Program-made: the position numbers and the translations under genes | DNA from: Hemileia vastatrix | Lineage: Eukaryota; Basidiomycota; Pucciniomycetes; Pucciniales; Zaghouaniaceae | NCBI GenBank assembly: GCA_030280995.1 | Contig: JASXTE010000002.1 | Location: 43,739,683-43,803,682, forward strand | Reading direction: 5' to 3' | DNA length: 64,000 nt | Part shown: positions 7,707 through 56,648 of the stretch, piece by piece | Layout: each line of letters opens with the position of its first letter | Position numbering within the stretch: position 1 is the stretch's first letter | The notes under the pieces: model-generated | Told to the model about the DNA's origin: nothing | What the model saw: only the letters and a program-made list of their open reading frames with translations | Databases searched by the model: none

Positions 7707-8563
7707 CAGTGGCCTGACTGAAATTTTCACCTGGTGCATGCATAATCCAGGTTATCGGCCTTTGTTTTTTTCTTCCTAACACCACCACCATCACTACTCA
7801 CACCTCAAAATCATACTAATTTTATGATTTACTTTTAACACTTTGTTAATTTTTCCTTTCTTTCTCTTTTCTTGCCAAACTGACTCATTAATCTCTTATC
7901 CAATATTTACCTTTTTTTCTGGTTTTCACTCAAACTACAACAGGGTCCTCAGCTTGCAAACGACATCTCATCCATGAAATGAAGATCACAATATTTAAAC
8001 CATTTACATACTATTCCAATTAATACACAATCTGTGCTCCTGGCACAATCCAATCACATTATTCAAGCCTTTTTTCAAACACATGAAAACACCTCAAAAA
8101 TATAGTTTTGTAATTTTATCACCCAATGACAGTTCCTGCTATGTTTAATGCCTTTAAATAGGCTTGGAATGGATTTTCCAACCATATTTTGAAAACTTGA
8201 TTGCATCTTTTCTTTCAAAGGTGCAAGTTGCCAGTGAAACAAACAGTAAAGCTATGTCTTGGTGATGCTTTTTTTGCTCAATTTTGTTCACTTTTCACCA
8301 ATCTTTTTTGCTCAATTCTCATACCAACCTCATCCCTTTCATTAAGGAAAAAGATAGACTTGTCAACTTGCTCTTTGTCACTTTCAATAATGATGTTTCT
8401 TCAAAAAATGTAATATTTCTATGAATTGGTGTCTGGCTGAGTTTATTTTGTGACAGTCCTATTCTGCATAGTCATATGAGTTAGAAATGTACAAGCTCAT
8501 GTCTGTAGAGTGAATATTAAGGGATTTATGAGGAAAAAAAACAGGTGGAAATTATTGTCCGGC

Positions 8564-9339
8564 TGTCACACGCCACGTGACACTCGAAGCGAAATTAACT
8601 CAATAAATCAATAATATCGAGTCCTAAATCTATACTCGAAGCGCAGAAAGCAATTCTCCATAGCAACTGCGATTTTCCTTTGTGTACTGCTATTTAACTG
8701 CGCTAGCCTAAACTCTAAATCTAAATTAGTCAATCTCCCAATAGGGTACCTTAGTCCTTTTCAATAAGCGACGCACAGCGCTAGGATCAACGAAATAGTA
8801 TAGTAGTAGTTTTTTTTTCATTAAAGTTGTTAATTAATTAAGAGGGACAAATTGAGCATGAACGGATATTTAGTAGAGAGGGTCTAAGTGTATGTTAGTA
8901 ATGGTCAATGGAACGGGAATGCTGTGATGGAAGGGAGGTCAATGCGAGGAGGAACAAAGGATATAAAAGGAGTTGAGTATTTGGTTCAATATTCCTTAGA
9001 ATTAAATTATAATATCGTATTTACATTAATAGTGGTAAAAAACTTAAAAGTTAAATCATTGTTATTGTATCTTTCTTTTACCTTCTCAAATATTCATTTC
9101 TAAATCCTAAAATTTTGATTATTGAGTTTCCAACCCTTCGTGAGATTTTAAGAATTATTATTACCTTGGAACTAGTTTATAATTCTTCTCAATCAAACCT
9201 CGAACCTATAGCTATTACTTCGAGTGACCTCCGAATCATTTCCTCGAATCATTCCTCTGTGCTTCAAAGAAGTTTCTAAAAATCCCTCATCTCACTTACA
9301 GGAACATCCTCAACCTTGTGCGTAGGTCGTCCGGTGACA
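8564..9339 (+). repeat. 5' LTR of gypsy B (776 bp)
   Basis: It aligns along its whole length with 16222-16997 without gaps. Eleven substitutions were found by eye, nine of them at CpG/TpG/CpA positions. The LTR holds a TATA box at 8962-8968 and the predicted transcript start near 8998, so U3 is about 434 bp and R-U5 about 342 bp. Confidence 0.95.
8962..8968 (+). promoter_or_regulatory. TATA box of gypsy B genomic transcript
   Basis: GATATAAAAGG is a good TATA box. The 14-nt segment AGAATTAAATTATA, complementary to the primer site, begins 30-36 nt downstream at 8998. That is where the transcript 5' end should be if the element self-primes. The same box is present in the 3' LTR. Confidence 0.7.
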
Positions 9340-9340
9340 G

Positions 9341-9354
9341 TATAATTTAATTCT
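9341..9354 (+). promoter_or_regulatory. Putative self-priming primer binding site
   Basis: TATAATTTAATTCT starts one base after the 5' LTR and is a perfect reverse complement of 8998-9011 in the LTR. No TGG-type tRNA primer site is present here. Tf1 and other sushi-type elements prime reverse transcription with the 5' end of their own mRNA, and gag/pol place B in that lineage. The assignment rests on complementarity and position; the actual transcript start is not known. Confidence 0.7.
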
Positions 9355-9411
9355 CTGTAGTTCTCATTCTTTGCACTACTACGTCTTTTTAGGTGCTTCT
9401 AAAATTTTAAA

Positions 9412-10599
9412 ATGGCACCTGTTCAACGCACTCCTCCTATTGGCGCTACTACTAGAGCTCGCACTAGAGGCAGGCCAACAGCCACAAGGTCTGTTTCTCG
9501 CACTCACTCTTTGGAACCACTCGACCTTAGGGAACGGCAACATTCAGTTCAATCTGTAGAAGACATTCCACAAGATTTTGAGGATTCTAGTGATGAAGAA
9601 GAAGGAGAGGATACAATGCATGAGGCACCATCCGCCCCTGCCAATCACCCTTCTGGCCAATCCTCAGAACCGGGACCATCTAACTCTCTGGAAGATTTCA
9701 TGAGACTTTTTATGAAAACCCTTTCAAATCCAACGTCTTCAGAGGGATCTAAGTTCAAAACTCCTTCTATGAAATCTCCTGACAAATTCGACGGAGATCA
9801 CCCCGACAGATTGCGACCCTTCTTGCAAACCTGCAAGCTACTGTTCCATAATGACCCTCAAACCTTTAACAGCGACCGAGAAAAGGTTGTTTACGCTTCT
9901 TCATTCCTAGCTGGGAAAGCAGCAAGATGGTTCGAACCTTATCTACTCATGCTTTCTTCGACAGAAACCCACTTACTTATCAATAATTGGGAAAAGTTTG
10001 AAGACCAACTTTTTACGTTGTTTGGGGACCCTAATGAAACGGACAATGCAGAAATTGAACTTGATTTTCTTCGCATGAGTGATAATGGTAAAGCCTCTGA
10101 ATATATCTCGAACTTCAGAGCACTTCAAACTCAAGTAGGTTGGAATGATGCTGCCCTTAAGTATCATTTCAGGAAAGGACTTCCTTCGAGGATTCTGGAT
10201 CAATTAAATCTTCACCGTCAGAAGATGACTACTTTAACGGATTTAATGGATCCAACCCTCGAGCTTGACGGCGTTTATCAAGGAGGACTTCAACATCGTC
10301 GATATGCCAACAAATCTCAAGGCCTAAATTTTAAATCGGGACCTTCTTCACACCCACGACCAAATCAATCCTCCTTGACTCAATCCAAACCCAATAAGGG
10401 AAAGGATAAACCTCGACCAAAAGGCTCGACCCCAGGCGATATCAGCAAAGTAATGGATCCTAAAGGGGAACTTAAAGAAGCTGAGAGGAAGAGAAGAGCA
10501 GATAATGGGTTATGTATGTATTGTGGGGGTAAGCACAAGTTGGAAGACTTTGTAAAGTTGAAGGAAAGAGAAGGTACTAGTTCGAAGTCAAAAAACTAG
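9412..10599 (+). CDS. Gypsy B gag polyprotein
   Basis: 395 aa from the ATG at 9412. The N-terminus is basic and disordered (RARTRGRPTATRS), followed by an acidic stretch near 60-75. A capsid-type retrotransposon gag domain spans about 115-285 (FKTPSMKSPDKFDG, AARWFEPYL, FRKGLPSRILDQL). A Lys-rich linker and a C-terminal zinc knuckle complete it. Gag forms the particle that packages element RNA. The knuckle reads CMYCGGKHKLEDF: C368, C371 and H375 are kept but the last ligand is F380 instead of Cys, so zinc binding is probably lost in this copy. The stop TAG at 10597 follows directly on an A AAA AAC heptamer, and pol lies in the -1 frame. Confidence 0.9.
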   Translation: MAPVQRTPPIGATTRARTRGRPTATRSVSRTHSLEPLDLRERQHSVQSVEDIPQDFEDSSDEEEGEDTMHEAPSAPANHPSGQSSEPGPSNSLEDFMRLFMKTLSNPTSSEGSKFKTPSMKSPDKFDGDHPDRLRPFLQTCKLLFHNDPQTFNSDREKVVYASSFLAGKAARWFEPYLLMLSSTETHLLINNWEKFEDQLFTLFGDPNETDNAEIELDFLRMSDNGKASEYISNFRALQTQVGWNDAALKYHFRKGLPSRILDQLNLHRQKMTTLTDLMDPTLELDGVYQGGLQHRRYANKSQGLNFKSGPSSHPRPNQSSLTQSKPNKGKDKPRPKGSTPGDISKVMDPKGELKEAERKRRADNGLCMYCGGKHKLEDFVKLKEREGTSSKSKN

Positions 10600-10651
10600 T
10601 AGATAGTTTACTTGTGTGCAAAGCAAACTATCTTATCTCTCCCAGTGCACA
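10590..10651 (+). promoter_or_regulatory. Predicted -1 ribosomal frameshift site with pseudoknot
   Basis: The heptamer A AAA AAC (10590-10596) is phased as the last two sense codons of gag (AAA AAC) before TAG. After a 4-nt spacer, AGATAGTTT (10601-10609) pairs perfectly with AAACTATCT (10625-10633). Loop bases TGTGCA (10615-10620) pair with TGCACA (10646-10651), giving an H-type pseudoknot. The -1 frame is open from the heptamer (CTA GTA GAT) through protease and RT. Heptamer, stop context, spacer, fold and frame all agree; function is inferred. Confidence 0.75.
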
Positions 10652-12569
10652 GAACCTCCATGTCTTAAGGACTGGAGTTGCCTTAAACCGCTTGAGATTC
10701 ATTCTTTTTAAGGAGGATATCCCCTTCAGTTGTCTTATAGACTCTGGAGCTTCAATTTCTTTTGTTAGTTTATCTTTTGCCGAGAAGCTTCAACTAACAT
10801 TTACAGATATCGATCAAACTCCCATCTATTTGGTCGAATCAGAGGAACCCAAATATTGGGTAAGTAAGAAAGTTTTATGGGTTTTCAACTTTCCAAATTT
10901 TCCCCCCTTCAAGTGGGAATTATCAGTCTTGGACGCCCCAAGGATGGACGATACCATTCTTGGCCATGACTTTTTAACGCATTGGAATCCCGAAATTGAT
11001 CGGACTAGGGGATTGATCACCCCACGCTCTAAGTATATTTCTGATTCTTCAATGCAGTTCAATAGGGAGTTAAACAACCCGCCTGACAATGTCCTGCTAG
11101 AGGACAAATATCTGCCAGATGACTTGCAAGCATCTGTACCTTCTTTAAATGAGCAATTGGCTAACCCTTCTAGCTCGATGACTTCACTCGAAGAGGATTT
11201 AAATTGCCTCGAAGTAATCGAATTATGCTCTCTCAATACAAGTATCCCCTCAACAGATTCTCTCAAAGATGAAGAGGACGACCAAATAAACGTTGAAGCC
11301 ATCAAATCAACTCTACCGGAAATCTACCACGATTTCCTCGATGTTTTCTCAATCCGCAAGGCCGATAAGTTACCACCTCATCGACCCTATGACCATCAAA
11401 TAGAGTTAATAGGCCCAGTACCTCCGGCAGGTCCTGTCTATTCTTTATTGAAGAATGAATCTCAAGTTCTTTGAGACTACATTGCAGAGAATGTAGCCAA
11501 AGGTTTCATCAGAGCCAGTAAATCTCCAACCGGCTCCCCTGTCCTCTTTGTAAAAAAGAAGGACGGTAGTCTTAGGTTGTGTGTTGACTATAGAAAGCTC
11601 AACACAGTCACAAAGAAGAATGCATATCCTGTTCCTCCTATGTCATTACTTCTTACCCTTTTCAATGGTGCTAATTTCTTTTCTAAAATTGATCTTAGAG
11701 GTGCTTACAATCTTATTCGCATTGCAGAAGGTCATGAACCACTGACTGCAATGCGCACTAGATTTGGTAGTTTTGAATATTTAGTTATGCCTTTTGGATT
11801 ATGTAACGCACCTTCAACTTTTCAAACTTTTGTTAATGATATCTTTCAAGATGTTGTTGAACAATTTGTAGTCGTCTATTTAGGTGATATTTTAATATTC
11901 TCGAAAACACTGGATGAACATATTCATCATGTTCGACAGGTCCTAAATCGTCTTCAAGATCATGGTCTCTACGCCAAGCATAATAAATGCGAATTCCACC
12001 TCAAATCAATTGATTTTTTGGGTTTTACGTTGTCCACTGACGGTTTAGTCATGGATGACAAAAAAGTCCAGAAAATCCTGGAATGGCCTGAGCCCAAAAA
12101 CATTAAATCACTCCAAGGATTTTTGGGTTTTGCAAACTTCTATAGAAGATTTATTAAAGATTACTCTAAAACTATTTCCAATATTACTTCTCTTCTTAGA
12201 AAAGATATTCCTTTTGTTTTTACTTCTACAGCACGAAAGGAATTCGAAGCACTAAAAACGGCGTTCACCACAGCCCCAATTCTTTGGCATTTTGATCCTT
12301 CGGCCTTGACAATAGTTGAGACAGATGCGAGCGATTATGCTATTGCAGGGGTCATCTCCCAATTAAATCCTGAAACAAATTTGTTTCATCCTGTTTCTTT
12401 TGAGTCACGCAAACTCATAGCCGCGGAATTAAATTATGAAATTCATGACAAAGAGCTTTTAGCTATTATCCATTGTCTTAAAAAATGGCGTTCTTTTCTT
12501 CTCAGCCTAGATAGTCCTTTTTCAAATTTTAACAGATCACAATGCTTTGAAATACTTCATGTCTTCTAA
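10596..12569 (+). pseudogene. Gypsy B pol: protease, RT and most of RNase H
   Basis: Entered by -1 frameshift from gag. The aspartic protease has LIDSGASISFVS near 10735-10770. RT runs from about 11400: [40 protein letters not shown]. RNase H begins with [12 protein letters not shown] near 12315. Three lesions disable it. A TGA at 11472-11474 interrupts the RT lead-in at a place that could be a decayed CGA codon. The catalytic box reads YLGD, with Gly at 11883-11885 in place of the first Asp. An extra T in the T5 run at 12518-12522 shifts the frame in RNase H, giving a false stop at 12567. The rest of pol continues in the next frame. Confidence 0.9.
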
Positions 12570-14247
12570 AGTGTTAACCAGGCGTCAAGCCAGGTGGGCT
12601 GAATTTTTGTCTGAATTTTCTTTCTCTATTTCCTATCGCCCAGGAAAAAACTGCATTGTCCCAGATATCTTGTCACGTCGGGACGACGTTTACCCACAGC
12701 GGGGGGACGCATTTGCTGACAAGAACACAGCAAATGTGCAATCAATCTTCAACGAATCAATGTTAACGACTCATCAACTTAATTCGATGACAATTCAATC
12801 TTTTCGAAATCCACTATCCAACATCCTCGAAGCTCAGTCGAAGGACGATTATTGTTTAGGGTTAAAAGACAAAATACTCTTGAAGAAAGGGGCCAAAAGA
12901 TTTAGTATTGAATCAGGTCTATTAGTCTTCGAAGGTAGAGTAGTCATACCTGACAACAATGAGATAAAATTATGGATTTTCAATAGTCGACATGATTCTC
13001 CGTTAGCTGGTCATTTTGGGGTTGATAAAACCTACCAGTTAATAGCGAGGGATTTCTTCTGGCCAGGTATGACCAAGGAAATCAAGGCCTATATAAAAGC
13101 TTGTTACGAATGTAATAGGAATAAGGCTCCCCGTCACCGGAAGCATGGGTTGCTTCAACCACTTCCTATTCCCTCTAAACCTTGGGAATCTTTATCAATG
13201 GATTTCATTTCTCAACTTCCTATTTCTAATGATTTTGATGCTATATTAGTAATAGTAGATAGATTTTCAAAAATGTCTATTTTTATTAAAACCACTACTA
13301 CTGCTACAGCAGAAGATTTGTCAAAATTGTTTTTAGAATATGTATTTTCTAAACACGGCTTACCAAATGATATTATTTCAGATAGAGGCTCATTGTTTGT
13401 ATCCACATTCTGGACCCAACTGTGTCGACAACTCAATATCACGAGGAATCTCTCCACAGCCTATCACCCTGAAACCGATGGTCAAACAGAAAGAGTTAAC
13501 CAAATCCTCGAACAATATCTTCGAATGTATGTTAGTTACCAACAAGACGATTGGACCACATGGCTACCATTGGCCGAATTTGCTTATAATAACTCGACTC
13601 ATTCTTTGACACGACAATCTCCCTTTGAAACCATTTATGGACGACATCCTCGGTTCAACTCAATTCATGTAGGAACTAATCATCCTGCGGAACATTATCT
13701 TCGAACTATATCACGACTCCAAGAAGAACTTAAAACAAATTTGGAATCAGCGATTCGAAGATACAAGGAACAGGCCGACAAACATCGACAATCTGCTCCT
13801 TCCTTTAAACCAGGCGACAAAGTATGGCTCGATGCACGAAACATCCGAACAACAAGACCATCAAAGAAACTGGCTGAAAAGCGCTTGGGACCGTTCAAAA
13901 TCGACTCTGAAGTCTCTAAAACTGCATTTCGACTCAAGTTACCTCCTAAATGGCAGGCGATTCACCCTGTTTTCCATGTATCTCTCCTGGAACTGGCTCA
14001 AGAAATATACCTGGGCAAGAACCAACCCCCTCCGGAACTGGTCGCAGTAGAAGATCATCTAGAGTGGGAAGTAAGTCGTATCCTTGATTCAAGAATACGC
14101 AAGGGGAAACTTCAATACCTCGTGGAATGGGAAGGCTTCCTCAATGACTCAGACAAAACATCCTGGGAACCAGCCATCAATGTTTCTAACGCTCCTGAAC
14201 TCCTAAAATCTTTTCATGCGAAATATCCTTTAAAACCAAAACCTTAA
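12523..14247 (+). CDS. Gypsy B pol: end of RNase H, integrase and chromodomain
   Basis: The frame resumes after the one-base shift with [12 protein letters not shown], the end of RNase H; the ATG at 12547 is probably not a true start. It runs 566 codons from there. The integrase has an HHCC finger ([15 protein letters not shown] ... [10 protein letters not shown] near residues 140-195). Its DDE core is intact, with Asp in SMDFISQLP, Asp in IISDRGSLF and Glu in [11 protein letters not shown]-terminal chromodomain covers roughly 495-555 ([20 protein letters not shown], then [10 protein letters not shown]). In this lineage the chromodomain tethers integrase to modified histones. The integrase part could still be functional in trans. 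Confidence 0.92.
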
Positions 14248-15161
14248 AATTTCTTTACTTAAATTTTTTTTTTTTCTTTCTTTCTTTAAAATCTAAAACA
14301 CCTCTTAAATTTCTTAGCCTTGTTTTCTTTTTTCTCTCTTCTTTTTTCTTCCTTCTCCTTCTATAAATTTCCTCCAAAACCAACTAAAAATAAAATCAAA
14401 AATAAAATTAAATACAATAAAATGCAATAAAAAAAATCAAAATTAAAATTAAATAAAATTAAATTAAATTAAATAAAATAAAATAAAATAGAATAAACAT
14501 AAATAATAAAATAAAATAAAAAACTCATAAATCTCTCAAAATATTTTCTTTCTTTTCTTCTTCAATTCTTTAAATACATTCTTTTCTTAAATTTAAAATT
14601 CTCTTCAAAAATTTCTCTTTCAAAAAATTTATTCTCTCTTTTAAAGACTTTCTTTCCTTCGAATCATCAAATCCTGTATGGCACGACCATTTCCTTGAAC
14701 TTAACTTCAACCCCTGAATCTCCCTATAATAATTCTTCGAAACAAATAAATCTTCTTTTCAAACTCTCTTAAATTCTACACTTTGTTTTTTTTCTTTTCT
14801 TTCTCCTCTTTTTCAAACTAAAAAAAAAAAAAAAAAAAAAATTAAAATCCTCAATTTAACAAACTCATCTCAATCACAATACCGTTTCTTTTTCTCTCTC
14901 TTTTCTTACATAAAAATTTTCCTTTTAAAAACACTAAAACTTCCTTCAATTAAAACAACCTTTTTTCTTTCTTTAAAATTCTTCTTTCAAATTCTAAAAT
15001 TTTTTATTTAAAACTTCTTTTTTCTTTTTTTTTTCTCTTCTTTTTCTCTCTCTCAAATCTTGTAAAAAACATTCACCTACAATAAAAAAAAATAATACTA
15101 ATAATAAAATAAAACTAAAATACATTTTTTTTCTTCTACTTCTTTCCATCTCCTTTTCATT
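14248..15161 (+). other. A/T-rich low-complexity 3' region of gypsy B
   Basis: About 0.9 kb between the pol stop and the end of the antisense ORF has no gene. It consists of pyrimidine-rich runs, AAATTAAATAAAAT-type repeats (14390-14530) and an A run of about 20 at 14820. It probably holds the 3' ends of both convergent transcripts, pol from the left and the antisense gene from the right. Confidence 0.6.
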
Positions 15162-16113
15162 TCAAATTTTTTCTTTTAATTTTTCTCGAACCAATCTTTT
15201 CATTTTCTCCAAAACTACCCTTATCTCCTTCCTGCATTTATCAAATACCTCCTCCTCTCCTACTGGAACCACCTCTCCAATCTCCAAGAGCTCCTCCGCC
15301 ACGTCGAAGGAAGCAGCGTCAATAATAGCGTCAACCTCCCCACATAGTTCTTCCGCAAACCTTACTCGTCGACCTTGACGAGGTTTCTTCGACCACACCT
15401 GGTCCAGGGTGTCTTCGGGCTCTTCAACTACTTCCGTGGCTGGAGGGTTTGCCTCAGTTGGTATAACCGGTGCAGGCTCCGCAATCGGCTCTTCCGGGTT
15501 ATTCGATGTCTAAAACAAGACTCATCAGTAACTTCATCCTTGAAATAAAACAATTAAAACTTACCTCGAAGATGGGATCAGGCTCCAGAAATAACCTGGG
15601 CGCCACTTCGACTTCTACCTCTCTCTCTTCCTCATCGTCCTTGATGACCACCCGACGTTTCTTGGGTGCCCGCCCTGGAACAGGGACTTCATCTTCATCC
15701 TCCTCCACCAATTCATCGACCTCTTCCTTGACACCTTGCTTCGAACTCGTGGCCTGGGTTACCCAGGTTGAGATCTTGTTGTTCATCTCCTTATCATTTT
15801 CCCCCACCGATTGTTCATCTTTGATCGAGACATCCCAAATGTCTTCGACCACCTCTTTGGTCTTCGGAACTACCCAAAATTTTGTTTTTGTAAATCGTTT
15901 TTCGATTTCCGCGTTCTTCGTCAACGCATCGCACGCCACTCGCCGCCAACGGCAAAACTCCCATTTCTGGAAAGGGCCTCGAGTCGCCGTACTTTCGACA
16001 CAGAAATATTCCATGCTTTCACAAGCCGTGCAAGTCTGTGAAAACTGTCGTGTGATTATTCCCCCATCCGCTTTAGGGTGTGGAGGCGTGGGTGTGGGAG
16101 TAGGGCAGTTCAT
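15162..16113 (-). CDS. Antisense spliced ORF inside gypsy B, unknown function
   Basis: Exon 1 is 16113-15565, starting at an ATG at 16113. Exon 2 is 15509-15162. The 55-nt intron (15564-15510) has a perfect GTAAGT donor and a TTTTAG acceptor in phase 0. Joining gives 298 codons, with exon 2 in the same frame as the downstream open frame ending TGA at 15162. A Cys cluster lies at C28-x2-C31-x6-C38-x15-C54-x6-C61. An acidic run covers 134-142, a nuclear-localisation-like APKKRRVV lies at 149-156, and the C-terminus is charged and helical. I do not recognise the family; it could be a nuclear zinc-binding protein. It lies between pol and the 3' LTR, on the opposite strand. An intron here is not recognised in the sense genomic RNA and so would survive retrotransposition. 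Confidence 0.75.
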
Positions 16114-16202
16114 TATAAAATAAATAATTGAGAGATGAGGGAAAAAGTATTAGACAAGGGAAATTAGTGTGGGAAGATGGTTCAAGCTCAACGGAGTTCG
16201 CG

Positions 16203-16211
16203 TTTTTTATA
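16203..16211 (-). promoter_or_regulatory. TATA-like box for the antisense ORF
   Basis: On the minus strand the sequence reads GGGTATAAAAAACG. It lies about 90 nt upstream of the antisense ATG at 16113 and 11 bp inside the 3' LTR boundary. It occupies the place where a sense-strand polypurine tract would normally abut the 3' LTR. A transcript starting about 30 nt downstream would have a 5' UTR of about 60 nt. Confidence 0.55.
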
Positions 16212-16221
16212 CCCGGGTATC

Positions 16222-16997
16222 TGTCACGCACCACGTGACACTCGAAGCGAAATTAACTCAATAAATCAATAATATTGAGTCCTAAATCTATACTCGAAGC
16301 GCAGAAAGCAATTCTCCATAGCAACTGCGATTTTCCTTTGTGTACTGCTATTTAACTGCGCTAGCCTAAACTCTAAATCTAAATTAGTCAATCTCCCAAT
16401 AGGGTACCTTAGTCCTTTTCAATAAGCGACGCACAGCGCTAGGATCAACGAAATAGTATAGTAGTAGTTTTTTTTTCATTAAAGTTGTTAATTAATTAAG
16501 AGGGACAAATTGAGAATGAACGGATATTTAGTAGAGAGGGTCTAAGTGTATGTTAGTAATGGTCAATGGAACGGGAATGCTGTGATGGAAGGGAGGTCAA
16601 TGCGAGGAGGAACAAAGGATATAAAAGGAGTTGAGTATTTGGTTCGATATTCCTTAGAATTAAATTATAATATCGTATTTACATTAATAGTGGTAAAAAA
16701 CTTAAAAGTTAAATCATTGTTATTGTATCTTTCTTTTACCTTCTCAAATATTCATTTCTAAATCCTAAAATTTTGATTATTGAGTTTCCAACCCTTCGTG
16801 AGATTTTAAGAATTATTATTACCTTGGAAATAGTTTATAATTCTTCTCAATCGAACCTCGAACCTATAGCTATTACTTCGAGTGACCTCCGAATCATTTC
16901 CTCAAATCATTCCTCTGTGCTTCGAAGAAGTTTCTAAAAATCCCTCATCTCACTTACAGGAACATCCTCGACCTTGTGCGTAGGTCATCCGGTGACA
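16222..16997 (+). repeat. 3' LTR of gypsy B (776 bp)
   Basis: It matches the 5' LTR end to end and is followed by the target duplication CCGGC (16998-17002). The bases just upstream (CCCGGGTATC) are not a polypurine tract. The nearest purine-rich run is at about 16130-16148. Confidence 0.95.
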
Positions 16998-17007
16998 CCG
17001 GCCACTG

Positions 17008-18205
17008 TACATGCTACCTTACAAGGTGCTAAATATATCAGCTGTCTGGATGGTAACAAGGGATATCACCAGGTACCTGTTTAGAATAATTCCCAGAATT
17101 TTCTGATGATTGCTACTCATATGGGTATTTATAAGTATGTTAGGATGCCATTGGCCTTAAAAATTCCCCTTCATTTTTTCAAAAAGTTATGGATAACACA
17201 TTCCATCAAGAGATAATTGAAGGATGGCTGATGTTTTACATTGATGATATCATTATATTCTCAAAAACATTTGAGGACCATCTTAACCACCAGTGTAAAG
17301 TGTTCCACAAAATGGATGAAATAAATATGACACTTGCTTTGAAGAAATTTAAATTTGGTTTTCATTCTTGAAAAGTACTTGGTCATGTTGTTTCAGGGTT
17401 ACAGATATGTGTTGACCAAAACAAAGTGGCAGCCATACAACAGGTGAAGGCTCCTACCACAGTTAGAGAGCTCTAGAGTTTTTTGGGAGTGTGTGGATAC
17501 TATAGAAAGTATATTAGAAGTTACCAAGTCATAGCTTTACCCCTTACCCAATTGACTAGAAAGGATGTTGCTTTTGTCTGGAATAATGAAAGACAGAGAG
17601 CTTTTGACACTATGAAACACTGTTTGATGTCAGCACCAATTATTGCTTTACCTGACTTTTATCAACCATTTGTTTTGTACACTGATGCCAGTTTTATTGG
17701 TCTTGGTGCTGCCCTCCATCAAAAACAAGGGATGAATGATAAAGTATCAGAAGTAGTAATTTTTTATATTTCAAGAATCTAGAGAAATAGTGAATTGAAA
17801 TATGGTGCCACTCAGCTTGAATGTTTATCCATAGTGTGGGCTCTAGAAAAGCTACATTATTACCTAGATGACCAGAAATTTGAACTTGTCACTAACTGAA
17901 GTGCAGTTAAATCCCTTTTAAACTTGAAAGCACCTAACAGACATATGTTCAGATGGCAGTTAGCTGTTCAGGAATACAGAGGGAGAATGAAAATTATTCA
18001 TAGGGCTGGTATTGTTCAATCAAATGTGGATATGTTATCTAGGTTACCTTTACCAAATAATGACTCTAATCCTGTGTATGATCCTGAGGATGAAATTATT
18101 CATATACATGGGATATATGTGGTTGATATGGAGGAAGAGCTATTACAGCTTATTCTGGATTCATATGATAAGGACACTGACTTAAAAAAGTTATGCACCA
18201 TATAA
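17008..18205 (+). pseudogene. A1 RT (C-terminal part) and RNase H, broken
   Basis: Homology to A pol resumes directly after the TIR element. The RT catalytic box YIDD is intact at 17237-17248. The connection domain follows (VCGYYRKYIRSYQVIALPLT), then RNase H (LYTDASFIGLGAALHQKQG) and the tether before integrase (AGIVQSNVDMLSRLPLP). Stops occur near 17082, 17369, 17474, 17780, 17897 and 18203. A2 holds the same region at 44700-45980. Confidence 0.85.
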
Positions 18206-18324
18206 ATGATCCAAAGAATGCTTCAATTCAAGCATTAATTAAAACCCTTTCACCAAAGTACCAAAAGGCTTTGGAAAAAGGTAAATTTTTACTTGATGAA
18301 GGATATCTATAATATAGAAGAAAG

Positions 18325-19677
18325 TTGAGTAATGTCATTGTTATTCCTCCTTCTATGAAAGAAATCATCTTGAAAATTTGTCATGATGACATATTAGCTG
18401 GACATTTTGATCTTGAAAAAACAATGATCAGAATTATAAACACTTCTTGGTGGGTTAATATGTATGAAGACACCAAATTATATGTTGAATCTTTTGATTC
18501 TTGCCAAAAATCAAAAATATTGACTGGTAAAAGAGCTGGATTAATGCAACATATTGAACCTCCTGATGCACCATGGCAGATAATAAACATGGTTTTTGTA
18601 ATAGGATTTCCCATTGCTGGAAAAGACATTTATAACTCTTGTTGGGTTATTGTAGACAGATTCACAAAAATGTGTAAATTTATCCCTACTCACAAGGATG
18701 TTTCCACTAAAGAATTAGCTTTCTTATGGAGGTCTCATATGTTTAATACTGCTGGTTTTCCTAAAGCCATAATCTCTGACAGAGACCCTAAATTTACTTC
18801 TGAATTTTGGATGTCTCTTATGGATTTTTGTGGTTGTAATCTGGAACTTTCTACTGCCCATCACCCTCAGACTGATGGATTAGCTAAAAGAATGATTCAG
18901 ACTCTAGAGGACATGATAAGAAGGTATTGTGCCTTTGGCCTTGAGTATAAAGACAATGACAGATTCACTCATGATTGGGTTACCTTACTTCCTGGGTTGG
19001 AATTTGCTTATAATAGCACTGTTCATTCTGTTACTCAAAGAAAGCCTTTTGAGCTCTGTCTTGGATATGTTCCAAATACTCCTGCCCAAATTCTTAAAAA
19101 TAAAATACCTATATTGGATTTACATCCTAGTGTAAAGTCTTTTCTTCAAATGCAACAACTATGCAGAAATCATGCTCAACATTGTATTGAAAAATCATTT
19201 GAATATGAGAAGAAGAGATGGGACAAATCCCATAAAGAATACACTTTTAAAAAGGGTGATGAAGTGTTGATTTCTACAGTCCACTTCAATTTACAAGGTA
19301 ATAACAAATTGAAAGACCCATTTGTTGGTCCATTTTTTGTCAGAAGAATGATTGGAGATAATGCAATTGAAGTTATTTTGTATTCTCCATATGACAGAAA
19401 ACATCATGTTTTTCCAATATCTCTTTTGAAACCTTACACATCCAATAGTGATTTATTTCCAAAAAGGAGGGGAACACCAAAGAAAACCCCAAATGAAATC
19501 ACTGAAACAGCAGAAATTGAAAAAATTCTGAATGACAGAATAGTCACTGCTGAAAAAGGTACAGAATATTTATTGAGATTCAAGAATAAATCATCTGAAT
19601 ATAATTCTTGGATACCTGGGAAGGAGATATCTAATCTTCCTACTCTACTAAAGAAGTATAAAAAGAAAAAATCATAG
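18325..19677 (+). pseudogene. A1 integrase and chromodomain, open but with lost catalytic residues
   Basis: This is the longest uninterrupted A1 frame (about 450 codons). The HHCC finger (ICHDDILAGHFDLEK ... SFDSCQKSK) is followed by the core. The first catalytic Asp, expected in the block before GFP, is replaced (NMVFVIGFP), and the Glu block reads DGLAKRMIQT, with Lys for Glu. The middle Asp (ISDRDPKFTS) remains. A chromodomain-like tail ends the protein (EIEKILNDRIVTAEKGTEYL, then SWIPGKEIS). It is therefore inactive despite the open frame. It ends 34 bp before the 3' LTR. Confidence 0.85.
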
Positions 19678-20525: not shown

Positions 20526-22022
20526 TATGTTGAGACTATCAACAGTGAGGGAAGCTGGGACTGACTATGCTGGATATAGCAGTGAGACTAGAGAGTAATT
20601 AGATTACTAGATAAGTTGTCTGATGAGGAGTGCTCCACCTCGCTTGCCCCATATAACCCCCTTATGCAATATTCCCTCTTTGGCCTCTCACAATGCATAG
20701 TGCCTATAGCGCTCCTCCTCCTCGCCTCTCAACCAAATCCTAACATAATTGCAACTTTTACTGGATGTCCATGAAGGCATACATTCAGCGCTATGAAAGA
20801 TACTGCATAGGGTGGTTGAATATGGAAATTCATTATGACATGAACCAAGTAACATGCAATTATATAGTTATTTTTTACCAACACAGAGGTAGATCTCCTT
20901 AGTGACTACTGAGTAACTGCTCAGTAAGTTAACATTAATTCCTCAGTAAATTTTTGGTTACAAATCAGAAAGGATTCAGAAGGGTTTCACTTAGAGCTAA
21001 TTGTAAGAGCTCAGTCTGATTTCCATCTGAGTAACAACTGCAGACTTGCTAGAAAGTCTCACCCCAAATATTTCGTGGTGAAATGTCTTATTGAGAACCA
21101 AGAAAAACCTATTTATATGATACTTAAAGGTAAGCCTGTAGCTGTGTTTTTGCTTCAAGAAAATGATTTTACTTAATGACAGATTTCTAACTTTGATACC
21201 CCCTAAAATTTGGTATATCCCACTTTTGGTGTAATGCCGGTGGGGAGACAGAGTCGTGGAGGACTTGCTGATGTCAAATTTTAAGCTTTCTGTCAAGTTT
21301 ATTTTTTTTTATTTTTTTTATTTTTTTATTTTATTTTTTTAATTTTGTTGCTAAATGGTTGTAAGACTTCTTATATTTGATGTAACATCCTTGAAAACTT
21401 TCATTCCTTCTCACTTCTCCATAATTTTACTATTCTTCACGAACCAGAACAAGATGATTCTCTCATCAAAAAAATGAGTTGGCACCTTCTAGCACACGCC
21501 CGTCCTTAAAACTCAATTATGTGTGACACCCAGTTCAACTTCAATTTCAACATCACACACACACTAGTATGCCCTGTAGCAGATGAAACTTGCTGTGCTG
21601 CAATTACCAAACTTCAAGTTTTTTTTTCAAGATTGACAGAAACATTATACTAGAGTTAAAACTAAGCTCAATTTACAAAAGTCAAGATTTATCACACTTT
21701 AACAGAGGGCTATAAGATCACCGTCTTGTTGATTTTTTAAATTTTTATTTCCACTGTTAGAGAGGAGAGCAAAAGCCTTGACACTGTGCGGTGTCACTAT
21801 GTCGGGTACTCCATAAGACCTAATAAAAGACCGATTTCAAGTCACGTGCGAGACAGGCGGCCAACTAGGCGGCTTGTGTTTTACCGACATCGCCAGGTTT
21901 TTTCACTGGGTGCTTGATAGCGGAACAAACAGAAAAGTAACTTGCAATTAGACCACCCGGTCCCCTGTGGAAAGATAACAAGTATCACAGTCCGGCAGGT
22001 TGAAAGTGCGTTCGGGAAGTCG
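20526..22022. other. Intergenic region upstream of GTP cyclohydrolase I
   Basis: No convincing gene is present. It holds the far part of the minisatellite (to about 20600). A segment at 20875-20900 ends CAACACAGAGGTAGATCTCC before TTA and resembles one end of the MITE at 58748-59547. At 21184-21205 there is a 22-bp sequence found again, inverted, at 57640-57661. The last 200 bp are less A/T-rich (CACGTGCGAGACAGGCGG) and probably form the promoter and 5' UTR of the next gene. Confidence 0.5.
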
Positions 22023-22913
22023 ATGGATTTATCTACAGCGGAAGAGCATCTAGGTATAAAAGATGTGGCATCTGACATATCCTCCTCAAGTTCGATGGTG
22101 TTAAATGAGGAAACTGGACAAAGCATGATCACAGGACGACGCTTACCCTTCACACCAGCCCTCAGCGATTGTGGGGAGCCAATACCGTCGCAGATACCTT
22201 CTTTAATGGAGAATGGATTAGGATGGCCTAGTAAAGGAACTCTGGCTAGATTAGCTGAAGGTGACAGGCTCAAGGCAGACGAGAAAGAAAAAACAGAAAC
22301 GGCGCGAGTCGAAAGATTGTCAGCAGCTGTGCGAGAAATTCTAGAATGTATTGGGGAAGATCCCGAGCGGGAAGGATTATTGCGAACACCAGAACGATAT
22401 GCCAAGGCGTTGTTGTGGATGACCAAAGGCTACGCTGAGCGATTACCTGATGTGATTGGATCAGCAGTTTTTAATGAGGATCACAAAGAAATGGTAATTG
22501 TGAAAGATATAGACATCTTCAGTCTTTGCGAGCACCATCTGGTTCCATTTACGGGCAAGGTGTCCATAGGATACATACCCGATAAGCAAGTACTTGGTCT
22601 TAGCAAGCTAGCACGCATTGCAGAAACTTACAGTCGACGTCTGCAAGTTCAAGAACGCTTAACAAATCAAATAGCTCGCACGGTCCAGGAAGCTATTTCG
22701 CCCCTGGGTGTTGGGGTGGTTGTTGAATGTACACACATGTGTATGACGATGCGGGGTGTACAGAAACCAGGGGCGCTGACTGTGACTAGTGCAATGCTTG
22801 GGTGTTTTCGAACCAAGGATCGGACTAGGGCTGAGTTCCTCAATTTACTCAGGTTAGTTGAACTGATTGAGCATGGATCAATTGCTGGTCATGGCCGGTG
22901 GATTGGTGTTTGA
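22023..22913 (+). CDS. GTP cyclohydrolase I
   Basis: 296 aa from the first credible ATG at 22023; the open frame extends upstream but without ATG. The enzyme converts GTP to dihydroneopterin triphosphate, the entry step of fungal folate (and pterin) synthesis, as a cytosolic decamer. Residues 1-90 are a low-complexity N-terminal extension typical of eukaryotic members. The catalytic domain runs from about 95 ([20 protein letters not shown]) to 277. Zinc ligands are C169 and H172 in CEHHLVPF and C240 in [10 protein letters not shown]. The domain normally ends near FLNLLR (272-277). The following 19 residues start at a GTTAGT that could be an intron donor, so the C-terminus may be longer or different in the mature mRNA. 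A single exon otherwise fits. Confidence 0.93.
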
Positions 22914-28774: not shown

Positions 28775-30805
28775 AATTTATCAAATTGTAAGTTATATTT
28801 ATTCTGGAACACTTTTATAGAAAGATAGCTGATATAATGTGTTAAAATTTGGTGAAGCATAAGTCCTCAGAATCCTGATCCTTACAACTCTCACAGAAAG
28901 ATAGTGCAAGCTGGTAAGTCCTATCGAACCAACAACAGTTAAACATATTCTCAAAGTCATTATTTTTTATTATAAAAATAACAAAATAATTAGAATGCAA
29001 CCTGAGTTTGTAAAGCTTAAATATTTAATATATCAATCCGTGGGCCCATAAAAAAGCTAATATGTTTAGATAATATCTCAATATATAGCAAGTCCAGTAA
29101 TCTTAAAACCTTCTTGACTAGGACTATGTAATTGACATTTGTTTCCTCCACTTTGAATGTCGTAAGGGGGACTTGCCATACTAAGGATTTTTTCAACTGG
29201 ATATACCATTAAATTTTAAGATTTATCTACTATGGCTCTCTTGCTTAATAGCTTCTATAGCTGCAAAAACTTTTCTAGTCATATGAATGTATGCCATAAG
29301 TTGTACTATTACTTTTTTACTTTTCTAGTGCACTTTAAGCTTGCTGTACATTCATCATCAACATAACATTTTACTTGAATCTAAAAGCATTTGATTCACT
29401 ATCCTATTACTCTTTACTTCTACCTTGGTTCTTCATTCTAAATCAAACAAGTTTAGCATCATCACTATTTGAAAAAATTAAAACACTTATTTCCATAGAT
29501 TGATTTATTAAACCCTTTTTTACACAATTCACAATCATCTAATTTTTTTTTATACTGTAGATAAATGCATAATTTCCTCCTTGCGCAGTTCTGATTTTCC
29601 TCTCTCAACTTTTCAATCTATTTTTGTCTCTTTCTTGATTTTTCCTAATAATCCCTTTGTTTTATTCAACACTTTATCAAGGAAAACGTAGCTTAAATCT
29701 AGACTCTTTGTTTTTTTGAAATACAACAGCAAGAGATAGATGTAAACAGTATGCTTGAACCAATACAAGTTTTTTTATAGTTCTGATTGATGAAATAAGG
29801 CTGAAGATAAAAAGGATGAGTTTTAAAGGTAGAGTGAGAACATAATTGTCATATATATACAATTGAAGGGGGACTTGCTAGTCAATCTCCTGGATCTTCA
29901 CTTGTTAGACTAATTATCCAACCATTCATTGAACACAGTTTGAGCTTGGTTGACTTCAAAGGCTTACAAAGATGAAAAAAAAAAAAAAAAAAAAAAGTGT
30001 CTGACCATCTTCCAATTGTCTTCCAACCGGCTCCAAAGTGAGCCCAAATTGAGTTCGATGGAGAGACTTGCTAGCAAGTTCCTTTTATTCCCCCCTTGGT
30101 TTACATCCTTTCTTCTGTTTCAAGTTTTTGTTGATATAAACAAACGATTTTCCTATTTTGCATATTGCTAATCATTTGAATCCATACATTGCTTACACAT
30201 CCTGCAAACAGTGGACGATTACAAAACCTCCTACTCATCAGGATTGACCCTTGATTTGAAATACCCTTGACTTCACTGCCAAAAAACTCCAAAACCTCCC
30301 CAAAAACTCGGCTTTTAAAAACAGGGGTAAGCTCGTCGATGGGAGATTTCTGGTAATCTTCCCTTATTTTCACTCAGTGTTACCCTGAAGGCATTATATC
30401 TATATATCTATATATATAAAAGAATTAGTGCACTAACTTCCTAAAAAAATAGTAAATTCGGCCGCTAACCTAATTGACCCCGACTGATTCCACATTGAAT
30501 ACTCGGGGCTGCGCGTCGCTAGATGCAGCAGCCCCAACAGCAATTCTCATTTCACAACCACTCATTCCACTAAAAACCTGAGATTGTAAGATATATCTAT
30601 CATGCGAGGTGCGTGCCTGCTGACCGTTTGCTACGCAGACGGGCAGAAGGCTCGTTCTAATAAAATAAAATAAAATAAAAAATAAAAAACACACATTCTT
30701 TCATAAGTTTGTAACTATTTATAAAAGTATAATGAATACGCCACACTGTATGCGGACAAAGTGAATAATATGATCGATACATAGTCCTCGCTGGTGATTT
30801 TTTGG
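28775..30805. other. Intergenic region upstream of the pseudouridine synthase
   Basis: No gene is supported over about 2 kb. Only short chance frames, a run of about 23 A at 29973 and an (AAAAT) repeat near 30660-30685 are visible. The last 50 bp before the gene have higher GC and probably carry its promoter. Confidence 0.5.
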
Positions 30806-32347
30806 ATGCTCCGACGAGCGACGACAGCGATCACGCGCCACATGGAAACAATCGAGGACCTTCTACGGCAAATTTCAGTCCTGCAGCAACGTGTGGCTCA
30901 ACTGGAAAACAAGCAACTCCTACAAAATGACCAAGTCTCCTCAGCAGCGGACAAAAAACTCGTAACAGATCATATTACAACAGATTTTTACCCTCAACGA
31001 AAGATTGCACTTGTCCTCAATTACGCAGGCTGGCAGCATGGGGGAATGTCTTGGCAGCGCGAGATAGGAAGTCGTAGCACTGTTGAGGAAGAACTGTTTG
31101 CCGCCTTATTACGCGCACATCTTGTGCCAATGGGTAACGGAGTACCGGAGACGGAGCGCCGGCGGGCACTGGCTGGCGACCGCTGGCGAGATGCCGTAGA
31201 TCTTCAGCACTGGCAATTCTCGCGCGCCGGCCGCACCGATGCCGGTGTCAGCGCCGCCGGTCAGGTGGTCAGTCTCAAAGTCCGCTCTAAAAAAATACGA
31301 GACGCGTCTCCGTCTTCATCGTCGGTTCTTCTTGATGATGATGAACTCAATTATCCATCCATTCTCAATTCATTTCTTCCTCCTTCCGTCCGCGTACTGG
31401 GATGGTCTCCCGTAGCTGACAGCTTTGACGCCAGATTTGATTGTCGGGCTCGGCATTATAAGTATTTCTTTTCTCGCGAAGAGTCTCCACAAAACCCACT
31501 TGATATAGATCTCATGAAAGATGCCGCTCACCGTCTTGTGGGTGAACATGATTTTCGAAATCTCTGCAAGCTTGACAAGTCTAAGCAAATCACAAACTTC
31601 AAGCGGGTTGTTTTTGAAGCCTACATTGACCCAGTGGTTGATGATTCATCACATCATTCCTGCCATGACCTCTTTGTATTCAATTTAGTGGGATCAGCCT
31701 TTCTTTACAACCAAGTTCGACAGATCATGACTGTCTTATTTCTTGTTGGTGCCCGTTTGGAAAAACCCACTATTATTGATGCTTTGCTGTACACTAATCA
31801 GGAGGCTGCTCGGCCACTTGACCTGGACCCTACTCTAGGTTACACTGACTGCAAGCCGGAAATGGCTCTGGCAAGTGAGCTTCCTCTTGTTCTCTGGAAA
31901 TGTAGATACGATGAAGGTACTTTCCAATGGCAAAAACTTATTGCACCTGATAAGGATTCTTCTTCTGTTCCCACAGTTCATTCGCGTCATATTTCTCAAA
32001 TGCGCACTGAGTGGTTACAGCATCGTTTCAAATCCATCATAACATTTCATCATCTTCTTAGTACTGCAGCAACACCACGAAAATCTCATACTGATGGCGC
32101 CAATCAGTCTGAAGTTACCATAACTAATGCAGATACTATGAAAAAACAAAAAATTGGGATATACCTAGGTGGCGGTCAAGTCCAGTGGACTCGGTCGTAT
32201 ACACCTATCATGGCTCGAAGAAGATCCCTCTCTTATGAAGAAAGTAATGCTAACTGGCTCAAAGGTAAAGGCGCAAGGAAAATAAAATCAAGTCATGTTG
32301 AAAATGCAATCCATCCTAATGTGCATTCTTCAAATAGTGAAAATTAA
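30806..32347 (+). CDS. PUS3: tRNA pseudouridine38/39 synthase (DEG1/PUS3 family)
   Basis: 513 aa from the ATG at 30806; an alternative ATG at 30842 gives 501 aa. The enzyme isomerises U38 and U39 in the anticodon arm of tRNAs. The N-terminus has a short coiled coil (METIEDLLRQISVLQQRVAQ) usual for PUS3. The catalytic Asp is D145 in SRAGRTDAGVSAAGQ. Other family blocks are ARFDCRARHYKYFFS, DFRNLCKLDKSKQITNFKR and GSAFLYNQVRQIM. The longer start adds MLRRATTAITRH, basic and Asp/Glu-free, which could be a mitochondrial targeting sequence. DEG1 acts in the nucleus, cytoplasm and mitochondria, so both starts may be used. Residues after about 400 form a low-complexity tail. The gene is intronless and less A/T-rich than its surroundings. 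A GGGGT repeat lies about 180 nt after the stop. Confidence 0.93.
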   Translation: MLRRATTAITRHMETIEDLLRQISVLQQRVAQLENKQLLQNDQVSSAADKKLVTDHITTDFYPQRKIALVLNYAGWQHGGMSWQREIGSRSTVEEELFAALLRAHLVPMGNGVPETERRRALAGDRWRDAVDLQHWQFSRAGRTDAGVSAAGQVVSLKVRSKKIRDASPSSSSVLLDDDELNYPSILNSFLPPSVRVLGWSPVADSFDARFDCRARHYKYFFSREESPQNPLDIDLMKDAAHRLVGEHDFRNLCKLDKSKQITNFKRVVFEAYIDPVVDDSSHHSCHDLFVFNLVGSAFLYNQVRQIMTVLFLVGARLEKPTIIDALLYTNQEAARPLDLDPTLGYTDCKPEMALASELPLVLWKCRYDEGTFQWQKLIAPDKDSSSVPTVHSRHISQMRTEWLQHRFKSIITFHHLLSTAATPRKSHTDGANQSEVTITNADTMKKQKIGIYLGGGQVQWTRSYTPIMARRRSLSYEESNANWLKGKGARKIKSSHVENAIHPNVHSSNSEN

Positions 32348-35925: not shown

Positions 35926-37997
35926 CACCAGATTGGCTGCCTTGCTACACCCCCTCCCTATTCCACGCAACTTAACTAACCTGATTATCGACTCATTAGA
36001 GGGACGCAAAACAAGCATCTCTTTTTCCTCTTACAAGTCACCCTCATGCTTCTTCCCAAAGGGACTTCCACAAGGATCCCCCTTATCACCAATCCTATAT
36101 GTACTTACCAATACTGACTTGCTTTCCCTCCCAACTCTGAGTAGGTATTCACTAGCACTAGGATATATAGATGAGGTCATATATCTCACAGCAAATGAAG
36201 ACCCAAAAGAGGTGGTGCGCTCCCTCTCAGCCCTTGGCTCAGAAGCAGTGGCATGGGGTTCTAAACATGCCATGGTCTTTGACTTTTCAAAGACCAAATG
36301 GCTACTTCTCACTAAACAAAAACAACTCACATCCTCCCTCTTGACACTGCCTTTCAATGGCCTTAACCTTAATCCTTCCCTGTTTTTAAAATAGCTAGGC
36401 ATCCTCATTGACCCAGCCCTCTTGTTCAATCCTAAGGGGAATAGATTAGTTGCTACTGGACTCAAATCAGTGGCAGCTATTCATAGACTGACATCATCAG
36501 GGTGGGGTATACCCCTAAAACAATATAAAATACTAATATCTTCTCTTATTCACTCAGGAATGGATTATGCTGCCATCATATGGCACAACCCAAAGAAAGC
36601 ATCATGGACTGAGAGACTCCTTCAAGTAGTTGACAACAAATCCTACAGAAGAGCTCTAGGCTGTTTTCACTCCACCCCAGTCCAGCTTCTCCTGCATGAC
36701 TCACAATCCCTAACTTGTAAAATGCATTTAGGATCTTGTAGTCAACAGGGTCTGGGCAACATTTCTTACAATCCCTTTCTCAAACCCCATGGCCCACTTG
36801 GCCAAAGATCTAATATCAATATCTCCACCAACTACACATATTAGCTAAGTCCCATTTGTCTCCCCCTCCTTTCCCCTCTCTACTCTTGACATTAAAAACC
36901 CATTACTCTTGCCCCCTTCCCCCCCCCCCCCCCCTATGTTCAAAACATTCATAGGGAACACAAAAGAGGAAGCATGAAATGAAATATCCTCTCTCCTTTC
37001 TTCTACTTTACCCTACTCATATTATTTATACACTGATGAATCTAAGTCACCAGCTGGCTCTTTTGTGGCTGCTTTTGACCCAGGCCAACAGTTACTATTT
37101 GTCTCTAGACTAGGCAATCTGCAACTTTACTCAGTTTTTGCAACAGAGTTGTGTGGTGTCCTACTAGGGCTCTTACTATTCATTGAAAACCCCTTACCCT
37201 TGACATACCCCTCATTCACCTTACTGGAAATCAATCTGTAAACAAGGTCTTTTCTAGCACAGTTCCCAATACCTCCAATGCTATTTTAACCATGGCAATT
37301 ATTAAAGCAGTTAACCTACTATAGAATGACAACCCAAACCAAAAATTAATAATAAGATGGTGCGCTGTACAAAAGGGCATCAATGGTAATGAAATTGTTG
37401 GTGGGCAGGAAAATTATTCTCACCCAATGGCAAACACAGCTGAGTCTATCCTTAAATTTCTTCCTCCCCCTCCCTCTTCCTCCTCATTGAAAATGCACAT
37501 AAATTCCTGCTCAAAAGCTCTCCTCCTCCCCCCCTCCAGAGATATGCTCAGGAAATTTAAAATGTGTTTTGACTCCTTTCACATTTTCAAAGTGTTAACA
37601 GAGCTTACACAGACTCAAGCCACAGAATTTGAGCAATGCTGCTCAGGGCACTCCCCTCTGAAGCATTACTTATGTTGTTTTAAAGCTGTACTTCGCTTTT
37701 GCACAGAACATTCAGAGGCATGCAGTTCACTATATTCTGCTTCCAAACACCACAAAATCTCATTTTCCACTTCCTCATTACTCTCTCCATCTAAAATTAC
37801 CAAATTTGTTTCCCAGTTTCTCATTAATGCTAATAGATTTCCCAATAGTTTCCCATCACCTGAACCTCTCTAACTAGTCTTATAATACTTTATTGCACTT
37901 AGTCTTCTACTAATTTCATTCTTCTATCCCTCTTTGTAGTTAGCCATAGCCCCTTCAAGCTCCATGCTGAGTGAGATTTAATGAAATAAATAAATAA
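35926..37997 (+). pseudogene. 5'-truncated LINE (Tad/I-like): RT end, RNase H, C-terminal domain
   Basis: The 14-bp duplication AAATAGCTGTATAT flanks it (35912-35925 and 37998-38011), and the 3' end is TGAAATAAATAAATAAAAA, a LINE-type tail. The first frame has the RT block GLPQGSPLSPILYVL and a damaged catalytic box (LGYIDEVIY). The RT thumb follows at 36422-36840 (GMDYAAIIWHNPKK). RNase H is visible in pieces near 37020-37160 (LYTDESKSPAGSF) and 37355-37430 (RWCAVQKGINGNE). The C-terminal domain with a remnant of the Cys/His motif runs to 37873. Several stops and shifts are present. The truncation is at the 5' side, as expected for target-primed reverse transcription. Confidence 0.85.
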
Positions 37998-55990: not shown

Positions 55991-56648
55991 AAAGAAATTT
56001 GTCTATTGCAATGGAGTTTTTTTAGCTGGGCTCTTTCTCTCCGCATCTGAAGGACACTCCATAGCTATTTTTTAAAATACTGGCAGAAAAAAGAAATGTA
56101 TAGAGACGCTATGGTATGCTAATTCGAGATATTTGGTGTGGTCGCTCATCAAGATTACTGGGTAGGTCATATTAATGCAACAATTTAATTATTTGCTGGA
56201 CCAGGTCAGCGCCTGGAAGGGACCTGCTTTCTTCTCCACTCTACTTCATCAAGTTTTTTTTACATGCAGAGATAGATAATATGACTAATTTTTCATTCAT
56301 ATGGCAAACCAAGCGTTTTATGTAACCTCGTAGCACTACGGACAGAGTAAAAGCCATTTGGATAGAGAAAAAAAATGCTGTGAAAAAAGAGAAAATATGT
56401 TTGCGGCAAGAAAAGTGCACAAGATGAAATAATTCCCTATAAAACTGCCCTGTTTTACCTCCAAAAACTTTAGAACCCATCAATTTTTTTAGATTTTCTA
56501 AAAGAATATTCTGCTTCTCCACCCATCATCCTATTGTCAGTTTTGATATCATTTCCAATATCATTTTCATATAATCTAATACTCACCAAACTCTTTAATC
56601 TTAACCTTTTTTTCGGAAGGAATTGAATTGAAATTTAAAACAGCGACA
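55991..56648. other. Spacer upstream of the secreted cysteine-rich protein
   Basis: No gene is supported. The final 100 bp, with pyrimidine-rich stretches (CTTAACCTTTTTTTCGG), are a plausible fungal promoter/5' UTR. Confidence 0.45.

Follow-up and report, generated by a model that had tools for sequence, protein, structure and literature searches.

Deltaretroviruses are an established case of antisense accessory genes, and antisense open reading frames (ORFs) are known from some plant Gypsy elements. In human T-lymphotropic viruses (HTLV) the HBZ/APH proteins are encoded by an antisense gene at the 3' end of the retroelement, with a promoter in the 3' long terminal repeat (LTR), a spliced transcript (both spliced and unspliced for HBZ) and mostly nuclear products; HBZ itself is described as a spliced, nuclear factor made from the 3' LTR that lowers the output of the 5' LTR (PMC10186651). 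In plants, almost every cluster of Retand (with Grande and RIRE2 mentioned alongside) has an antisense ORF located between pol and 3' LTR, for which DNA binding is suspected (PMC11963269). For fungal chromodomain Gypsy elements, the legend of Figure 3 in PMC2864245 lists an additional ORF of unknown function; bearer elements, orientation and splicing are not given there. Among the matches listed for full-text literature, the titles and abstract openings mention no accessory gene of a fungal LTR element that is antisense or spliced, most subscription journals being outside that scope. Here we analyze a stretch of 64,000 nucleotides (nt) from Hemileia vastatrix (GCA_030280995.1, contig JASXTE010000002.1, forward-strand positions 43,739,683 to 43,803,682; hereafter the window), in which a chromodomain Ty3/Gypsy element, element B (8564-16997), carries a putatively spliced antisense gene between pol and its 3' LTR.

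By analogy, HBZ is the closest working counterpart of this gene. Nonetheless, HBZ is a bZIP protein, and no sequence relation was found between it and the predicted product of element B; moreover, the putative promoter in element B lies just outside the LTR and the intron is located inside the coding sequence. Retand differs in being a plant element of a non-chromovirus lineage, in the Transposase 28 domain of its antisense product and in that the word "intron" is absent from the main text of the paper describing it (PMC11963269). Transposase 28 (PF04195) was not among the matches at E ≤1 for the window protein.

The antisense gene comprises 298 codons plus a stop, divided over two minus-strand exons that are joined in phase 0. 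Exon 1 (16113..15565) contains the start codon, a Zn2Cys6-like cysteine cluster (residues 28-61), an acidic stretch and a PKKRR motif; the intron of 55 nt (15564..15510) has a GTAAGT donor, a TACTGAT branch-site-like motif and a TTTTAG acceptor; and exon 2 (15509..15162) includes the stop codon. A first-pass annotation had proposed this same two-exon frame, with phase 0, the donor, the acceptor and the flanking bases 15565 and 15509, and all of it could be confirmed on the window sequence. Upstream of the ATG, on the same strand, lie a pyrimidine-rich leader and a putative core promoter (16114..16221), the TATAAA of which (16211-16206) begins 98 nt ahead of the start codon. The annotation had placed a TATA-like box about 90 nt upstream, where a polypurine tract is normally expected. 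None of the 30 aligned copies described below has a polypurine tract next to the 3' LTR, the junction (16164-16221) being pyrimidine-rich with small variants only. In the window copy the closest purine run of at least 8 nt is 57 nt away from the 3' LTR.

The GC content is 0.51 and 0.49 in the exons, 0.27 in the intron and 0.21 in the spacer beyond. This AT-rich, pyrimidine-rich spacer (14248..15161) is the putative 3' untranslated region of the antisense mRNA and has an AATAAA on the minus strand at 15008-15003. The 3-base periodicity is 5.0 and 6.5 in the two exons against 0.1 in the spacer (a measure that indicates neither frame nor strand), and the codon score is best for the antisense frame out of six in each exon, yet all scores there are negative. 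As a side observation, the GC skew of the spacer goes down to -0.95 and its 29 copies contain 527 indel events against 3 in both exons together, a contrast that is biased because the copies were selected by similarity to the antisense gene.

A gene model of this size is rarely obtained by chance. None of 300 dinucleotide shuffles produced an ORF of at least 204 codons, spliced or unspliced, and among 116 other window stretches of 1059 nt (both strands) only three attain 298 codons under the same rule; their starts (12708, 9531 and 30711) fall inside or at the border of the frames for gag, pol and pseudouridine synthase. When exon 1 was kept fixed and the downstream 403 nt were shuffled, 1 out of 2000 sequences attained 298 codons (with a loose donor rule), and with both exon 1 and intron fixed and the remainder shuffled this number was 10 out of 2000. 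The donor-branch-acceptor pattern at 41-141 nt has just two matches on both strands of the 64 kb, the second of which is located inside the reverse transcriptase (RT) frame.

Two sets of copies were collected. For the region-selected set, the own genome (747.6 Mb) was searched at DNA level with 914 nt of the gene; 40 of the 3655 first-look candidates were scored, each with at least 97% identity over at least 912 of the 914 query nt. Thirty of these copies, including the window copy (L001), were read. The ATG, the GTAAGT donor, a YAG acceptor and the antisense TATA are each present in all 30 and the branch motif in 29, and the 298-codon frame is intact in 18 (L024, with a 1-nt insertion, is counted as broken). 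The second set was obtained with an Austropuccinia psidii pol query (60 scored of 62557 candidates, 30 loci returned) and thus offers a view of the copies that is free of selection by similarity to the gene. All 30 pol-selected loci belong to the element B family (integrase and chromodomain 97-99% identical to those of B) and all contain antisense DNA, even though most loci end inside the gene and L060 holds only 215 nt of it. The full sequence was read for 20 of these loci; one copy occurs in both sets (L029, identical to L067), leaving 49 distinct copies. Here donor, branch motif and YAG acceptor are found in 20/20, and ATG and TATAA each in 18/20. The first-pass annotation had considered its proposal refuted if other copies lacked the ORF or had it randomly disrupted; the outcome is the opposite, with the DNA in every pol-selected locus and the splice sites in every copy read from either set.

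The variation among copies carries a coding signature. Over the 30 region-selected copies, the ratio of nonsynonymous to synonymous polymorphism (pN/pS) is 0.40 for the antisense spliced frame against 0.46-0.90 for the other five frames. Private variants (present in one copy each) behave neutrally, 30 out of 114 being synonymous with 29.6 expected. Shared variants, which are taken as those passed through active elements, are synonymous in 31 of 63 cases against 20.2 expected (P 0.003, and 0.004 in a repeat); the excess is seen in exon 1 (22/48, 15.7 expected, P 0.03) as well as in exon 2 (9/15, 4.4 expected, P 0.01). We also used a set of 45 copies, composed of the 30 region-selected and 15 pol-selected ones (L065, L066, L068 and L069 were left out due to truncation or indels and L067 as duplicate of L029). 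In this set even the private variants are enriched (72 synonymous of 186, 48.7 expected) because older lineages enter, and among exon-2 variants common to at least three copies 14 out of 23 are synonymous (7.1 expected).

Stronger divergence is provided by L077, a copy that is 88.6% identical to the window copy. In five comparisons its exon 1 shows a synonymous divergence (dS) of 0.38-0.48 and a nonsynonymous divergence (dN) of 0.03-0.05, so that dN/dS amounts to 0.07-0.13; for exon 2 the ratio is 0.17-0.26. The first-pass annotation had named a dN/dS below 1 as a check, and the ratios of both exons lie below this value. Compared to L018, third positions account for 44 of the 56 differences in exon 1 and 14 of the 25 in exon 2. 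The intron of L077 differs by 15% and its leader by 17%, and its exon 2 frame is broken. We regard it as strongly supported that the antisense spliced frame is protein-coding and under purifying selection, and very likely the protein does something for element B. The proposal of an accessory gene on the opposite strand, already made in the first pass, is supported by the presence of the gene in copies, the kept splice signals, the synonymous bias and the dN/dS near 0.1 against L077.

The strand assignment deserves separate attention, since a plus-strand frame of 217 codons (15470-16123) is also open in the window and falls with its third positions on those of exon 1. Due to this coincidence the shared-variant test alone cannot separate the strands: in the plus mirror frame, shared variants are likewise enriched for synonymous changes (33 of 63, 20.3 expected). 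The exon-1 span is stop-free in the plus frame in 21 of 30 copies (antisense: 23 of 30), and in a six-frame analysis of L077 (three comparisons) the plus mirror comes second with a dN/dS of 0.12-0.18 in exon 1 and 0.20-0.31 in exon 2. Nonetheless, the antisense frame has the lowest ratio in both exons in all three comparisons, though narrowly in exon 2, and the 217-codon frame starts with GTG. As the intron measures 55 nt, the mirror signal switches plus frame between the exons: the plus frame that mirrors exon 2 is not that of the 217-codon ORF, and both contain stops in exon 2. The spliced antisense model covers both exons with one protein, which no single plus frame does, and an open mirror across exon 1 has a probability of 0.04 if the plus strand is the gene against 0.11 if the minus strand is. 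That the plus-strand frame is the gene and the antisense frame its mirror is therefore highly improbable. Still closer to negligible is the probability that the antisense RNA itself is the product, acting for instance by pairing with the sense RNA. The location between pol and the LTR does fall within the sense RNA and would suit such pairing, but the concentration of differences at third codon positions is not explained by a non-coding RNA.

A further alternative is that the gene is a passenger, that is, a host gene fragment that a single active copy acquired and that then multiplied without having a function. LTR elements are known to gain extra ORFs in a transduction-like manner, in one or few copies (PMC11963269). 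Against this stand the antisense DNA in all 30 pol-selected loci and the selection visible both in the shared variants and in L077 (dN/dS near 0.1). A search that reached E ≤10 provides no homolog from which such a fragment could derive, and we consider the passenger scenario very unlikely.

Proteins of the Zn2Cys6 (Gal4) type have the spacing C-x2-C-x6-C-x(5-12)-C-x2-C-x6-8-C and bind CGG triplets. Of the 29 region-selected copies besides the window copy, 27 show C-x2-C-x6-C-x12-C-x2-C-x6-C at residues 28-61 of the predicted protein (Cys 28/31/38/51/54/61), in agreement with this spacing; the remaining two are without Cys 28. The window copy deviates, having Trp at residue 51 where all 29 others have Cys, and its cluster must be considered damaged. 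The C-x2-C-x6-C...C-x6-C cluster reported in the first pass is this damaged form; the complete six-cysteine spacing is found in other copies and not in the window version. The PKKRR nuclear-type signal noted at the same time is retained in 26 of 30 copies, with PKKRW in the other four. Taken together, the antisense product is probably an element-encoded, nuclear, zinc-binding accessory protein.

The explanation that we favor, and to which we give a somewhat better than even chance, is that this is an accessory gene of a high-copy Tf1/sushi-like chromovirus, antisense to gag-pol, whose nuclear Zn2Cys6-like product acts on the transcription or chromatin of the element in the manner of HBZ. A short antisense mRNA would start from a TATA promoter of its own that directly adjoins the 3' LTR. 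The intron would be spliced from this antisense RNA only, while the sense genomic RNA would keep it; being removable in the antisense orientation only, the intron can persist when the element passes through its sense genomic RNA. The predicted product is 298 residues long and combines a Zn2Cys6-like zinc cluster with an acidic central part and a charged end; as a nuclear protein it would go back to the nucleus and most likely act on element B's own transcription or chromatin. In this scheme, transcription, splicing, nuclear localisation, zinc and DNA binding, and regulation by the antisense product are all steps that we infer.

A number of observations weigh against parts of this explanation. 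As to the coding signal, the low dN/dS depends on a single divergent copy (L077), the exon-1 variants common to at least three copies of the 45-copy set are synonymous in 20 of 49 cases against 16.2 expected (P 0.15), and in total nucleotide divergence exon 1 (0.025 over 30 copies) does not lie lower than the pol end (0.022). Of the 30 region-selected copies, 12 have a broken 298-codon frame (four of them only within the last eight codons), as have 10 of the 20 pol-selected ones (intact in the other 10; two are without the 5' part), which we read as decay after insertion. As to the protein, Pfam Zn_clus is the sole match at E ≤10 when residues 1-88 of five copies are scanned, and its 11.8-12.8 bits are under the cut-off of 21, for which reason we call the protein Zn2Cys6-like and not a family member; for the whole window protein, Zn_clus is not among the matches at E ≤1. 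The first half-site of the cysteine cluster is acidic instead of basic, and CGG/CCG pairs 0-15 nt apart are absent from the LTRs and the leader, where only overlapping CCGG occurs. Searching 5.8 billion proteins at E 1e-3 or 10 yielded no homolog (1667 candidates sharing 5-residue words), although this collection does contain A. psidii relatives of pol (about 50%). Two single-sequence structure models were uninformative, with a predicted local distance difference test (pLDDT) of 35 and 41. In addition, the protein had no match in PDB, and viral contigs gave no match for either pol or the antisense protein.

Several of these points would equally fit a real antisense-encoded protein with another role, such as a nucleic-acid chaperone, a packaging or integration cofactor or a counter-silencing factor: the likeness to Zn2Cys6 is by spacing, with a Pfam score under the cut-off, the LTRs are without spaced CGG pairs, and the window protein is acidic (66 acidic and 44 basic of 298 residues). 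The nuclear-signal-type basic motif, kept in most copies, speaks for a regulator instead, and a separate antisense promoter would suit a factor that is made apart from the particle proteins. We consider such another role unlikely, yet a serious competitor to the HBZ-like regulator.

The regulatory reading can be extended with the behavior of the 3' part of the element. The pol locus of L077, named L047, matches B at 96-98% identity through the pol end, whereas beyond pol the identity drops to 80-91% across the spacer, exon 2, the intron and the part of exon 1 that it holds (for L077, 81-91% up to the LTR start). In our reading, L047/L077 arose by recombination close to the pol stop, with the 3' block behaving as a module; this concerns one case. 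It is conceivable, though we place it at somewhat less than an even chance, that all of the following hold jointly: the family encodes, on the antisense strand, a spliced Zn2Cys6-like nuclear factor of its own, lineages exchange the block composed of spacer, antisense gene and LTR, and an antisense core promoter occupies the place of the polypurine tract, so that plus-strand priming differs. If true, a conserved intron-containing antisense gene in a fungal chromovirus extends the antisense strategy to fungi, shows a way for a retroelement to keep an intron and offers an entry point to how a family is controlled that has thousands of candidate sites in a single, very large genome.

Element B itself has the architecture of a chromovirus. 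Its LTRs (8564..9339 and 16222..16997, plus strand) have TGTCAC...GTGACA ends and match with 98.6% identity over 777 nt without gaps, the first matched base being a common C outside the TG; they are flanked by an identical target site duplication of 5 nt (CCGGC, 8559..8563 and 16998..17002). A sense TATAAA (8962..8967), from which the transcript start would be placed, is located 36 nt ahead of an LTR stretch (8998-9011) that is complementary over 14 nt to a primer-binding site (9341..9354) directly after the 5' LTR. None of 1000 mononucleotide-shuffled LTRs equals this complementarity, and we take the arrangement to be the self-priming layout of Tf1/sushi elements. Tf1/sushi elements have the chromodomain, the Tf2-1-type SH3 domain and the LTR-complementary self-primer in common with element B, which differs in its extra antisense gene and in the absence of a polypurine tract adjoining the 3' LTR.

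On the plus strand follow gag (9412..10599; Pfam Retrotrans_gag, 5.3e-11) and pol in three parts: aspartic protease (10614..11474; RVP_2, 1.5e-6), RT with RNase H (11577..12569; RVT_1, 4.2e-31) and integrase with chromodomain (12547..14247; Integrase_H2C2, rve, SH3_Tf2-1 and Chromo). The resulting domain order (gag, protease, RT/RNase H, integrase, Tf2-1-type SH3, chromodomain) is that of Ty3/Gypsy chromoviruses. In the window copy, pol is broken by the stop that ends part 1 (11474) and by a frame change (around 12550) where part 2 loses its frame near the end; other copies with an open frame of 1221 residues exist. The nearest named pol relatives are proteins of the rust A. psidii (top 53%), and the best unnamed one reaches 64% (among the best 120 of 5202). 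Element B seems inserted in another chromodomain Gypsy element, as RNase H and integrase/chromodomain ORFs are located on its right side (17483-19677). The ORF lists and one tblastn run, in which the antisense protein matched itself and two chance-level regions (E 0.65 and 7), revealed no antisense gene in the other Gypsy elements that the window contains.

Outside the Gypsy elements discussed here, the window contains a reverse transcriptase domain fragment (35933-36394) and a small cysteine-rich ORF (56628-57083) that has a hydrophobic start, no Pfam match at E ≤0.001 and, judged by eye, a secreted appearance. Two host genes are present as well, encoding GTP cyclohydrolase I (21942-22913) and a tRNA pseudouridine synthase (30794-32347).
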